From Nonomuraea helvata (GTDB lineage: Bacteria; Actinomycetota; Actinomycetes; Streptosporangiales; Streptosporangiaceae): DNA of 64,000 nucleotides. Of this stretch, positions 28,639-32,760 are shown one piece after another. Numbering within the stretch: position 1 is the stretch's first letter; each line of letters begins with the position of its first letter. Location of the stretch: assembly GCF_039535785.1 (NCBI RefSeq), contig NZ_BAAAXV010000011.1, positions 310,001-374,000 of the forward strand, given 5' to 3'. Position numbers and translations under genes: made by a program. Under the pieces are notes generated by a model. That model was not told the DNA's origin. It did no database searches and was given only the letters and a program-made list of their open reading frames with translations.

Positions 28639-29985
28639 TCAGTACATCAGCGACGGCTCGAGCCGCTCGGCCGCCGTCGCGGGCTCCCGCTCCTCGACGC
28701 CCTTGCGGACATGCCTGGTCAGCAGCACGCCTTCGGCCACCGCGAGCGCGCCGTACAGGAGCGTGAAGATCGTCAGCGAGGTGGCCACCTCGGCCAGGCT
28801 CACGCCGGGCGACACGCTGGAGGCGGTGAGCAGCTCGCCCGCGACCGTCCACGGCTGGCGGCCGATCTCGCTCAGCAGCCAGCCCGAGATCACCGCGACC
28901 AGCGGCAGCGGCAGGGCGAGCAGCAGCGCCCGCGACAGCCAGCTCGGGAACTCGCGCCTGCGCCGGGTCAGCCAGAGGCCGAGCACCGACAGGCCCACCG
29001 TGGCCATCCCGAACACGATCATCACCCGGAACGACCAGAACACGACCGGCTGGTCCGGCCGGTAGTCGGCCGGGCCGAACTGCTGCTCGAAGCGGCGCTG
29101 CAGGTCCTCGGTGCCCTGGACGGCGGCGTCGGGGTCGTGGTCGGACAGGAGGCTCAGCAGGCGGGGGATCTCGATGCCGGGCACCACGGAGAACGCCGCG
29201 CCCGTCGTGTCGCGCTCCAGGCCCTCGGCGGAGGCCAGCTTCATGGGCTGCTGCTCGTACATCAGCCTGGCGGACGTGTCGCCGGTGCCCGCGACGACGG
29301 CCCCCGCGATCGCCGTCATCACCAGCGCGGCCCTGGCGGCGCTGCGCCACATCGGGGCCCGCGTCTTGAGCAGCCAGTAGCCGCTCACGGCCAGCACGAA
29401 CCCGCCCGCCACGACGAACGCGGCCCCGATCACATGGGGCACCTGCGCCAGTGCCGTGGAGTTGGTGAGCACGGCCCACAGGTCGGTCATCCTGGCCTTG
29501 CCGTCCACGACCTCGTAGCCGACGGGATGCTTCATCCAGGCGTTGGCCGCGAGGATGAAATAGGCCGACAAGTTGGACCCGATGGCGGCCGCCCAGATGC
29601 ACGCCAGATGCGCCTTCTTCGGCAACCGCTCCCACCCGAAGATCCACAGCCCCAGGAACGTGGACTCCATGAAGAAGGCCAGCAACGCCTCCATGGCCAG
29701 CGGCGCCCCGAAGACGTCGCCGACGAACGTGGAGTATTCGCTCCAGTTCATCCCGAACTGGAACTCCTGCACGATGCCGGTGACCACGCCCATGGCGAAG
29801 TTGATCAGGAACAGCTTCCCGAAGAACTTCGTGAGCTTCAGGTACTGGTCCTTGCCCGTGCGGTGCCAGGCCGTCTGCAGGCCCGCCACGAAGATCCCCA
29901 GACCGATGGTGAGGGGCACGAACAGAAAGTGGTACACGGTGGTCACCCCGAACTGCCACCGCGCCAGGTCAAGTGCGTCCATCAT
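28639..29985 (-). CDS. cydA: Cytochrome bd ubiquinol oxidase subunit I
   Basis: A 448-residue, nine-helix subunit carrying haems b558, b595 and d. The axial His is in TTVYHFLFVPLTIGL (about residue 20), the second in LAQVPHVIGAAF, and the quinol-site GRQPW motif is present near the C-terminus. The Q-loop is short, as in actinobacteria. Two consecutive ATG codons start the gene (29985 and 29982). Three dyads of CTAC-N5-GTAG lie 20-66 bases upstream and are probable regulator sites. Confidence 0.93.
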   Translation of the reverse strand: MMDALDLARWQFGVTTVYHFLFVPLTIGLGIFVAGLQTAWHRTGKDQYLKLTKFFGKLFLINFAMGVVTGIVQEFQFGMNWSEYSTFVGDVFGAPLAMEALLAFFMESTFLGLWIFGWERLPKKAHLACIWAAAIGSNLSAYFILAANAWMKHPVGYEVVDGKARMTDLWAVLTNSTALAQVPHVIGAAFVVAGGFVLAVSGYWLLKTRAPMWRSAARAALVMTAIAGAVVAGTGDTSARLMYEQQPMKLASAEGLERDTTGAAFSVVPGIEIPRLLSLLSDHDPDAAVQGTEDLQRRFEQQFGPADYRPDQPVVFWSFRVMIVFGMATVGLSVLGLWLTRRRREFPSWLSRALLLALPLPLVAVISGWLLSEIGRQPWTVAGELLTASSVSPGVSLAEVATSLTIFTLLYGALAVAEGVLLTRHVRKGVEEREPATAAERLEPSLMY

Positions 29986-30005: not shown

Positions 30006-30051
30006 CTACAAGCCGTAGTACATCTACTTGAAGTAGTACTACAAGTCGTAG
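30006..30051. promoter_or_regulatory. Triple CTAC-N5-GTAG operator array upstream of cydAB
   Basis: Three dyads of identical form, CTAC-N5-GTAG, lie at 30006-30018, 30024-30036 and 30039-30051. The outer two are also inverted relative to each other over longer arms (CTCTAC...GTAGTAC and GTACTAC...GTAGAG). They are 20-66 bases from the cydA start. The half site resembles operators of BlaI/CopY-type repressors (TACTAC/GTAGTA). No regulator gene of that kind is in the window. Confidence 0.55.
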
Positions 30052-30374
30052 AGCAATGCGATGCGATGTGCTGCGAGCTTGGTCACATCGCTGTCGCCTG
30101 GTTGTCGCTGCGTACCGAGGATCCCCTGCGCGGCCGGTCCGGCGCGTCAGCCGACGGGTTGATTCATCCGTACGTCCGCAGGCGGACCCTCGGTCCTTCC
30201 AGGTCGGCGGTGCCCCTACTTCGTTCGAAAACAGTATGGAAAACATCGGTAGCAGCCAGTAAGGTTGCACTCCGTAAGAATCCTGTTACAGAAGGTGCGT
30301 AATGGTCATCCGCCGATCCACCACCAACCGTTGCGCGCCGCTCTTATGGCAGCTGTTGCCCTTATCCGCCCGAT
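30052..30374. other. Intergenic stretch with a possible folded element
   Basis: No gene is supported here. Bases 30114-30194 can fold: ACCGAGG (30114-30120) pairs with CCTCGGT (30188-30194), and inside it CCTGCG (30125-30130) pairs with CGCAGG (30177-30182). The element matches no RNA class that I recognise. It may be a terminator or leader of the flanking genes. Confidence 0.35.
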
Positions 30375-30491
30375 CCTGACTGCTTAAAGTTGCCGCGTAA
30401 CGGGATCCCGGCCTTGGAGGGCCGGGCTTTCAGCCCCATGGGCTGAGGGCCGCCGTTACCAGACCCAGCCAACACCGACAAGGAGGTGACC
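30375..30491 (+). ncRNA. Candidate omega RNA (HEARO-like) of the IscB nuclease
   Basis: A clear three-way junction lies directly upstream of iscB. The closing stem GTAACGG (30397-30403) with CCGTTAC (30453-30459) encloses two perfect hairpins: CCCGGCC/GGCCGGG (30407-30413 with 30420-30426) and TCAGCCC/GGGCTGA (30430-30436 with 30440-30446). IscB nucleases use an omega RNA (earlier named HEARO) encoded just 5' of the ORF, with the guide at its 5' end. The core fold is seen. The 5' limit, the guide (expected just upstream of 30397) and the 3' limit are inferred, and the RNA may continue into the first 240 bases of the coding frame. Confidence 0.6.
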
Positions 30492-32042
30492 ATGTTGGCT
30501 ACCTTTCGCGCAGGACAGAAGACCCACCAAGCTGTGCTTCCTCAGCAGCTTGCTCTGGAACTGTGGGCAGCAGACACTCCCCGGGTCGGGAACGAAACGG
30601 GCCCGCAGCGCCGTATGGCACCGTGCGTGGAAGATGGTCGAGAGGAGATCGCCAGGCGTTCACCTGCGACTGGTGGCGTCACCCCCGAGCCTTTCGGAGC
30701 CGGGGAGGAGCCGCGTGAGCGGCACCCGTTCGTGTTCGTACTCGACAAGCACGGGAGACCGTTGCAGCCGTGTACGCCCGCCAGGGCGCGCAGGCTGCTG
30801 AAGTCCGGGCGGGCGGTGGTCGCCAGGCACACCCCTTTCGTCATCCGGTTGAAAGATCGCATCGCCGCTGACAGTCAGGTCGACGGGGTGGAGCTGGGCA
30901 TCGACCCCGGCTCCCGCCACACCGGCATCGCGGTATTCACCGCCGTGGCGGGGGAGCGTCGCGCCCGGTTCGCTCTCCAGCTCGACCACCGTGGCGCACA
31001 GATTCAGAAGAAACTGGCGAAGCGGGCTACCTATCGCAGGCGACGCCGTTCGGCGAACCTTCGCTACCGCGCACCGCGGTTCTTGAACCGTGCCCGCCCA
31101 GGCGGCTGGCTCGCCCCGTCGCTGCGGCACCGCGTCGGCAGCACGGCTTCGTGGGTAGACCGGCTCGTCAGGTGGGCGCCGGTCCGCGCGGTGCATGTGG
31201 AGCAGGTCGCGTTCGACACCCACGCCATCAGTGCGGGGCGTCCGCTGGAGGGAGCCGAGTATCAGCACGGCACCATGTACGGGTACGAGGTGCGCGAGTA
31301 TCTACTGTTCAAGTTTGGCCGGGCCTGCGTCTACTGCGGCGCAACCGGTGTGCCGTTGAACATCGACCATGTCCGCCCTCGGTCGCGGGGTGGCTCGGAC
31401 CGGGTGTCGAATTTGGTCTTGGCTTGTATCCGGTGTAATCAGGCCAAGAGCAACCGCCCGGTTGAGGAATTCGTCACCGACCGGCGGGCGCTGGCCCGGA
31501 TCCTGGCCCAAGTGAAAGCACCGTTGCGGGACGCAGCAGCGGTGCAGTCGGTTCGCTGGGCTTTGTGGCGTGCCCTCGACCAGCTGCTGCCTACCCACAG
31601 CGCGTCGGGTGGGCGGACCAAGTGGAACCGCACCCGATGCGGCCTGCCCAAATCTCACACGCTCGACGCTCTGGCGGTAGGCAAGCTCACCATCATCACC
31701 GAGGCTGTCAGCCGCGTGCTGATCGCGGGATGTGCGGGCCGTGGCAGCCACGCCCGAACCCGCACCGACAAGTACGGCTTTGCCCGCCTGCGGCTACCGC
31801 GTCGCAAGCAGTTCTACGGCTTCGCCACCGGCGACCTTGTTCGTGCTGTCGTCCCCAGCGGCAAAAAGGCCGGAACCTACACCGGTCGAGTCGCCGTACG
31901 TGCCACCGGAAGCTTCAACATCGCCACCGCCCACGGCACTGTCCAGGGCGTCCATCACAGGCATGTCCGTCTGCTGCAGCGGGCGGATGGTTACACCTAC
32001 ACCCTCACGAAGGAGGAAGAGGTATGTGGGCTTCGCGCTTGA
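30492..32042 (+). CDS. iscB: IscB RNA-guided endonuclease (OMEGA family, RuvC-HNH)
   Basis: A 516-residue protein in the ancestor family of Cas9. Domains in order: an unusual 78-residue N-terminal extension; the PLMP domain (FVLDKHGRPLQPC, residues 82-94); RuvC-I LGIDPGSRHTG (Asp138); the arginine-rich bridge helix (172-200); RuvC-II VHVEQVAF (Glu237); HNH (CVYCGAT, IDHVRPRSRGGSD with His293, CIRCNQAKSN); RuvC-III SHTLDALAV (His389, Asp392); and a C-terminal target-interaction region. All nuclease residues are kept, so it is probably active. AAGGAGG lies 5 bases before ATG 30492. No TnpA transposase is nearby, so it is a stand-alone copy. Codon use in the N-terminal extension is less GC-biased than in the rest. 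Confidence 0.9.
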   Translation: MLATFRAGQKTHQAVLPQQLALELWAADTPRVGNETGPQRRMAPCVEDGREEIARRSPATGGVTPEPFGAGEEPRERHPFVFVLDKHGRPLQPCTPARARRLLKSGRAVVARHTPFVIRLKDRIAADSQVDGVELGIDPGSRHTGIAVFTAVAGERRARFALQLDHRGAQIQKKLAKRATYRRRRRSANLRYRAPRFLNRARPGGWLAPSLRHRVGSTASWVDRLVRWAPVRAVHVEQVAFDTHAISAGRPLEGAEYQHGTMYGYEVREYLLFKFGRACVYCGATGVPLNIDHVRPRSRGGSDRVSNLVLACIRCNQAKSNRPVEEFVTDRRALARILAQVKAPLRDAAAVQSVRWALWRALDQLLPTHSASGGRTKWNRTRCGLPKSHTLDALAVGKLTIITEAVSRVLIAGCAGRGSHARTRTDKYGFARLRLPRRKQFYGFATGDLVRAVVPSGKKAGTYTGRVAVRATGSFNIATAHGTVQGVHHRHVRLLQRADGYTYTLTKEEEVCGLRA

Positions 32043-32076
32043 GGCTGTCCCGGTGGGGTTTGCTCGGGGGACTCCG

Positions 32077-32760
32077 ATGAAAGTGGAGGGTAGTGCCGTG
32101 ATCGGCGTTCAGAGGGATCGGGTGTGGGCGGCGCTCCAGGATCCCGCGGTGCTGGTGCGCACCATTCCGGGGTGCGAGCGCCTGGAGGAGACCGGGCCTG
32201 ACACGTACCGGATGACGGTCAACGCGGGCGTCGCGTCCATCAAGGGCGTCTACCAGGGGGAGGTGGCGCTGTCCGATCCGCTGGCTCCTGAGTGCTTCAC
32301 GCTCAAGGCGCGGGGGCAGGGGGCGCCCGGGACGGTGGACGCCACCGTGCTGGTACGGCTGAGCGAGGTGGAAGACGGGACCCGGGTGGACTACGACGCC
32401 GACGCGATGATCGGCGGGATGATCGGCGGGGTCGGGCAGCGCATGCTCGGCTCGGTGGCCAAGCGGACGGCGGAAGAGTTCTTCTCGGCGGTCGAGGATC
32501 ACCTGCGTGCGGCGCCCGCGGGCGTCCCGGCGGTCGTTGGGGCCGGTGCGCATGTGCCGGCCCAGGCGGCGGGTGTGGCGGACCAAGAGGGCGCGGTGGG
32601 TCCTGTGGGGGGTGCTGTTTACGAGCGGCCCGCCGAGCGGCGCACGCAGACGCGGCCGTGGGTGATGCTGGCGTCGTTCGGGATGGGGGCGGGCATCGCG
32701 CTCACCGGGGTCGCGGTGGGCTGGCTGCTCGGACGGGCCTCCCGGCGCGGGCGCACATGA
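32077..32760 (+). CDS. CoxG-like SRPBCC protein with C-terminal membrane anchor
   Basis: A 227-residue protein. Residues 1-145 are the CO-dehydrogenase subunit G (CoxG) type SRPBCC fold (MKVEGSAVIGVQRDRVWAAL, then TIPGCERLEETGPDTYRMTV). A low-complexity linker and one hydrophobic helix close to the C-terminus (about 200-220) follow. GGGGGA precedes ATG 32077. CoxG proteins recruit molybdenum hydroxylases to the membrane. The nearest such enzyme in this window is 10 kb away, so a functional link is only a possibility. Confidence 0.8.
   Translation: MKVEGSAVIGVQRDRVWAALQDPAVLVRTIPGCERLEETGPDTYRMTVNAGVASIKGVYQGEVALSDPLAPECFTLKARGQGAPGTVDATVLVRLSEVEDGTRVDYDADAMIGGMIGGVGQRMLGSVAKRTAEEFFSAVEDHLRAAPAGVPAVVGAGAHVPAQAAGVADQEGAVGPVGGAVYERPAERRTQTRPWVMLASFGMGAGIALTGVAVGWLLGRASRRGRT

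Follow-up and report, generated by a model that had tools for sequence, protein, structure and literature searches.

An iscB locus of Nonomuraea helvata, located within a stretch of 64,000 nucleotides (contig NZ_BAAAXV010000011.1, positions 310,001 to 374,000; referred to here as the window, within which positions are numbered), is very probably a non-autonomous Nonomuraea element of the IS200/IS605 superfamily (ISC type) that encodes an OMEGA system, i.e. the nuclease IscB together with an omega RNA. The life cycle proposed as part of this reading would comprise insertion in trans by a Y1 transposase on the 5′ side of an RTGA motif, derivation of the guide from the flanking sequence and cutting of the empty allele. 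A stand-alone OMEGA locus had already been recognized, correctly, in an initial annotation of the window, several other claims of which are revised below.

The boundaries of the element were determined from its empty sites. Relatives within Nonomuraea have cydA next to a coxG-like gene (coxG), with no insert in between; when position 30396 of the window is joined to 32077, the alignment runs through the junction in 21 loci, and 17 of these 21 coxG empty sites, compared side by side, keep the register from the guide region to the ATG. The element therefore spans 30397–32076 without a target duplication, and not 30375–32042 as originally delimited. The empty sites of the relatives align with the predicted guide (TGCTTAAAGTTGCCGC) without gaps and with several substitutions, and a pattern search found one mismatch-free occurrence of this guide in its own genome. 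In these alignments the predicted guide region corresponds to the sequence beside the motif in the empty site, following the guide logic of OMEGA systems; a comparison of the roughly 16 bases preceding the scaffold with empty sites, suggested from the outset, gave the predicted result. For four other copies in the same genome, the joined flanks match contiguous sites in relatives, in one case without gaps and at 92% over 400 bp. The genome contains six divergent IscB copies, each at a different and unrelated site, and their distribution across the genus is sporadic, several species carrying copies in decay. The initial annotation had named a non-autonomous element or a retained host gene as the two options; the exact empty sites, the six divergent copies and the sporadic presence strongly favor the element over the host gene. 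The annotation had also denied the existence of IS200/IS605 ends, but both ends are present and can be aligned with those of resident TnpA/TnpB elements, and the predicted subterminal hairpin ends without target duplication are those of the IS200/IS605 superfamily, the inner right-end hairpin being lost in this copy.

An omega RNA is predicted directly upstream of iscB. The match to the HEARO model RF02033 extends from the first to the last position of the model (1–211), with 57.6 bits and E = 5.7e-11 on 761 bases, and the same match has E = 2.0e-10 genome-wide (11.3 Mb). The covariance-model check that had been recommended thus returned a full-length match at 30397–30653, but one below the gathering score: a Rfam search at the gathering threshold gave nothing at the locus, and RF02033 appears only under a lax threshold (57.6 versus 83 bits), which counts against assignment by the threshold of that model. 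The other copies score 50–73 bits, also below gathering, with one exception at 91.7, and the six HEARO matches in the genome coincide with the six IscB loci. The consensus fold from 16 homologous RNAs contains 73 pairs, 37 of which show compensatory changes; the three-way junction noticed earlier upstream of the gene is included and is supported by this covariation. By these comparisons the predicted omega RNA is a full-length, covariation-supported structural match. A hepatitis delta virus (HDV)-ribozyme-like match on the minus strand (30430–30502; 26.1 bits, gathering threshold 50, E = 0.15) was taken as probably due to chance.

The iscB gene is intact and encodes a predicted RNA-guided endonuclease. 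The protein matches the NCBIfam family NF040563 (guided_IscB) with 418.6 bits (cut-off 175), as well as the Pfam families RRXRR and HNH, in agreement with the complete gene described initially. Residues D58, E157, H213, H309 and D312, numbered from the GTG at 30732, are invariant in 14 homologues; these are the residues listed earlier as Asp138, Glu237, His293 and His389/Asp392, which is right in numbering from the ATG at 30492. The PLMP domain is likewise present, in that the N-terminus aligns with solved IscBs from residue 1–2, although the motif itself reads PLQP. A start at ATG 30492 was not upheld. Although the frame stays open as far back as 30486, the 80 codons ahead of GTG 30732 overlap the omega RNA and homology begins only at FVL, so that this GTG is most likely the true start. 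The GCCGC-GTGA-GCGGC hairpin that follows the probable ribosome-binding site GGGGAGGA would shorten the distance from that site to GTG 30732. The closest solved relatives are TbaIscB (the best match, E = 3e-46, and distant), HfmIscB and OgeuIscB. All pairs compared indicate purifying selection on IscB, with ratios of nonsynonymous to synonymous substitution rates (dN/dS) of 0.15–0.32. Structure prediction with AlphaFold, based on 14 sequences, gave a poor model (predicted local distance difference test score, pLDDT, of 41). Identity as a type II Cas9 was rejected for this protein of 436 amino acids, which falls far below the cut-offs of the Cas9 models; CRISPR arrays were not searched for.

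No Y1 transposase is encoded in the element and, as had been stated, none lies beside it; nothing homologous to the resident Y1 transposases was found in the IscB loci examined. Y1 transposase genes above the Pfam cut-off are nevertheless present elsewhere in the genome, and the left- and right-end hairpin sequences of two near-identical resident TnpA/TnpB elements (C5:1123464 and C2:252925) align with those of the IscB elements. Because these end hairpins are similar, the IscB elements are likely to be mobilized in trans. Three loci (L087, L088 and L089) are of the IS605 type, with TnpA and a divergent TnpB; L087 and L088 are near-identical, lie on two contigs and are possibly active.

Comparison of elements with their flanks indicates that divergent elements reached the same start codon independently. 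At the start codon of nrdB the elements are 69% alike, whereas the flanks are 87–90% alike and the guides are one base apart; at that of hisA, the elements are 78% alike and the flanks 92%. The ispE start codon is occupied in three species, and further recurrent sites exist. In two other pairs (L069/L166 and L144/L147), element and flanks are equally diverged, i.e. these are old shared insertions.

The preference for start codons was examined in 80 related loci, drawn from about 12 genera of actinobacteria, together with the Nonomuraea copies, and 76 right ends were scored; outside Nonomuraea the junctions were placed by visual inspection, with the conserved right end as reference, and verification by empty sites covers the own-genome copies only. 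The right end is followed by ATGA in 71 of the 76 cases and by GTGA in four. Start-like junctions account for 64/76, compared with 13.6% of 3,244 background RTGA sites in the same flanks (binomial p about 2e-43, a value that is too small because some loci are related by descent; the effect itself is not in doubt). A crude gene caller places a start exactly at 37 of 66 junctions and, for 12 others, nearby and in frame, compared with 2.4% of 3,713 background RTGA sites. The downstream proteins matched an NCBIfam family in 18 of the 20 cases tested, mostly from about the first residues, and the families include ispE, dnaN, ruvA, ybeY, uppS, hisB, guaB, nrdB, proA, menD, era and pth, as well as hisA-trpF, hom, xseB, tsnR, sdaA and hutH. 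In reconstructed empty sites, a strict native ribosome-binding site precedes the junction in 46% of cases versus 13.7% of the background, so that this site is often part of the guide. A ribosome-binding site belonging to the element itself lies in the right end of about half of the copies and is absent in the Nocardiopsis group; the idea that the right end always supplies one was accordingly rejected. We consider it an even question whether this actinobacterial IscB clade is specialized to translation start codons, such that target and motif would be the leader and RTGA: the leader, often that of a housekeeping gene, would become the guide, the host promoter would become the omega RNA promoter and the right end would in many copies become a substitute ribosome-binding site.

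Some of these junctions have features of their own. To the right of the element in L102 and L109, the abutting ATGA opens an open reading frame of 12 codons, whose stop and the start of an epimerase-like gene overlap (GATGAGG), and this short leader frame is kept in both species. In L068 (G000:C1:2475421, reverse complement), the insertion lies at an overlapping stop/start TGATGA, and the left end begins with A rather than G, so that the upstream gene retains its TGA stop. In L078, a stretch of about 30 bp that borders the element on its left and contains the guide is tandemly duplicated (GTCAGAGCCGCGTGCCCCGATAACATC twice).

In the proposed mechanism, a Y1 transposase acting in trans would insert the element 5′ of RTGA, and transcription from outside would append the flanking 16 nucleotides to the omega RNA as a guide. 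The IscB–omega RNA complex would then recognize the guide sequence together with RTGA, a combination present only in the empty allele, and cut it, and repair from the element-bearing copy would restore or spread the element; the occupied site would be spared because its motif is displaced. As RTGA is mostly a start codon in this clade, elements would come to lie between the native leader of a gene and its start codon, and the substitute ribosome-binding sites of many right ends would limit damage to the host gene.

Several observations weigh against this account. No pair of copies exceeds about 94% identity, and therefore no recent movement is seen. The resident TnpA elements end near TGAA and not in a verified RTGA, so that the cognate transposase may be a different one. 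By the criterion used here, about 12 of the 76 insertions are not start-like, and one insertion (L096) falls within the coding region of an aldehyde dehydrogenase gene. The activity of IscB and of the omega RNA at this locus is itself a prediction from sequence. Moreover, this copy is unusual. In 16 of 17 empty sites TANNNT lies about 6 nucleotides before the coxG ATG, so that coxG is probably leaderless; the transcription start is predicted at about 30397, the first scaffold base, with the guide overlapping the −10 box, and from the coxG promoter this copy would hence be predicted to make an unguided scaffold unless another promoter reads through. With the inner hairpin of its right end lost and the outer stem kept, this copy may also be immobile. 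The notion that all elements make their guide from a host promoter was dropped as not universal, since three of the 76, this copy included, look leaderless.

There are alternatives to this account. One of them, which we hold to be possible if rather unlikely, is homing without a transposase: on entry into a new genome, IscB would cut the cognate empty allele there and the element would be copied in by recombination, as with homing endonucleases, this being the main route of spread and TnpA playing a minor part today. The lack of a transposase in cis, the vertically kept sites with equal divergence of element and flanks (L069/L166 and L144/L147), the purifying selection on IscB and the absence of near-identical copies at new sites all agree with such a route; it leaves the arrival at new, unrelated start codons unexplained, however, and the element ends resemble those of TnpA elements. 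The two routes are compatible with each other. An IscB retained by the host for a function in defence or regulation, with mobility lost, would fit the intact reading frame under purifying selection and the degenerate right-end hairpin of this copy, but we judge it improbable: the site is empty in the relatives examined, the genus has such elements only sporadically, some species carrying copies in decay, and the six copies occupy unrelated sites.

The start-codon rule could also be the outcome of survivorship alone, with insertions within genes lost and those at start codons remaining. Insertions in genes are surely selected against, and 77% of the background RTGA sites lie inside called genes; yet at sites outside genes starts make up 79% of the insertions and only 10.5% of the background RTGA sites, as assigned by the gene caller, and we therefore give this explanation a minor share of our belief. 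Selection for placement in transcribed leaders, which the guide needs, would be a possible remaining form of it. That the locus is a chance reading frame beside a chance RNA fold would draw on the high G+C content, which makes long frames and stems cheap, but this is already refuted by the 418-bit family match, the whole-genome E = 2e-10 of the RNA, the covariation and the exact empty sites. The non-autonomous IS200/IS605-superfamily element thus remains the reading that we prefer.

Table 1. Features of the iscB locus and its flanks (window coordinates).
Feature	Position	Strand	Description and basis
Mobile element	30397..32076	+	1,680 bp, no target-site duplication; base-exact from empty sites in Nonomuraea relatives
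Predicted guide	30381..30396	+	16 nt, TGCTTAAAGTTGCCGC; host sequence, not element; directly 5′ of HEARO start; contiguous with ATGA in empty sites
Omega RNA (HEARO) scaffold, predicted	30397..30653	+	5′ part is the element left end GTAACGGGATCCCGGCC...; RF02033 positions 1–211; covariation
Probable ribosome-binding site of iscB	30702..30723	+	GGGGAGGA, then GCCGC-GTGA-GCGGC hairpin; inferred by sequence inspection
iscB	30732..32042	+	436 aa; PLMP-like (PLQP), RuvC-I D58, bridge helix, RuvC-II E157, HNH H213, RuvC-III H309/D312, C-terminal domain
Right end of element	32043..32076	+	Outer stem GTCCC (32047–32051)/GGGAC (32068–32072) kept; inner hairpin of relatives lost
Target-adjacent motif	32077..32080	+	ATGA, coxG start codon plus A; empty-site alignments; RTGA at all scored relatives but one
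coxG-like host gene	32077..32760	+	Start codon abuts element; Pfam PF06240 (CoxG) 1.2e-22
Predicted native coxG promoter	30362..30390	+	TTATCC (30362–30367), 17-nt spacer, TAAAGT (30385–30390); 17 aligned empty sites, sequence inspection
cydA (cytochrome bd oxidase subunit I)	28639..29985	-	Divergent left neighbour, outside element; Pfam PF01654 1.7e-155; orthologous flank in 55/55 genus genomes

The element lies in the sense orientation between the coxG promoter and the coxG ATG (Table 1), and the sequence GGGGGA (32066–32071) in its right end can act as a ribosome-binding site for coxG. Upstream of cydA, a nested palindrome at 30010–30056 (CTACAAGCCGTAGTACATCTACTTGAAGTAGTACTACAAGTCGTAG) is strongly conserved in all aligned relatives and is probably the operator of a regulator of the cyd genes.

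HEARO elements, in the work of Weinberg et al. of 2009, are reportedly mobile and join ATGA or GTGA. A link between the motif and translation starts was not found in the literature searched, the coverage of which was partial, so that this negative result carries little weight. Loci with a stand-alone IscB and HEARO RNA, few of them accompanied by a transposase, are already known (PMC9755519), and those IscB OMEGA systems resemble the present locus in having a HEARO omega RNA directly upstream, a guide 5′ of the RNA and mostly no adjacent transposase (PMC9755519). IscBs tested elsewhere use the motifs NWRRNA or NTAAA (PMC13180657), in contrast to the RTGA inferred here. For IsrB, a close relative, the 3′ motif NTGA (TTGA/ATGA) was shown experimentally (PMC9581776). 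The omega RNA layout of IsrB is also the same, with the ribosome-binding site of the reading frame near the 3′ end of the RNA, whereas IsrB lacks the HNH domain that this IscB carries. The known systems (OgeuIscB, KraIscB, OrufIscB, TbaIscB, HfmIscB; HEARO) share the domain order and catalytic residues of this IscB, which differs from them in its insertion at start codons and has only distant similarity to the solved proteins. The resident IS605-type elements, for their part, share similar hairpin sequences at both ends and differ in carrying a Y1 transposase and TnpB and no IscB.

Although IscB is the ancestor-type of Cas9, little is documented of how it lives in nature, since transposases and visible ends are missing from most copies. 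For this locus the ends, the target, the guide and the empty allele could be placed with single-base precision, and one simple rule covers the copies: the site is RTGA, in most cases a start codon. On this basis it can be proposed, in testable form, how IscB elements without a transposase persist, what the source of their guides is and why these guides hold ribosome-binding sites; the analysis also yields a set of compact IscBs for which an RTGA motif is predicted. The type of locus is known already, and the start-codon niche is the part worth following. If the specialization to start codons is true, the 5′ leader would be a niche for RNA-guided mobile elements, in which harm to the host gene would be limited and expression of the element would be tied to conserved genes.
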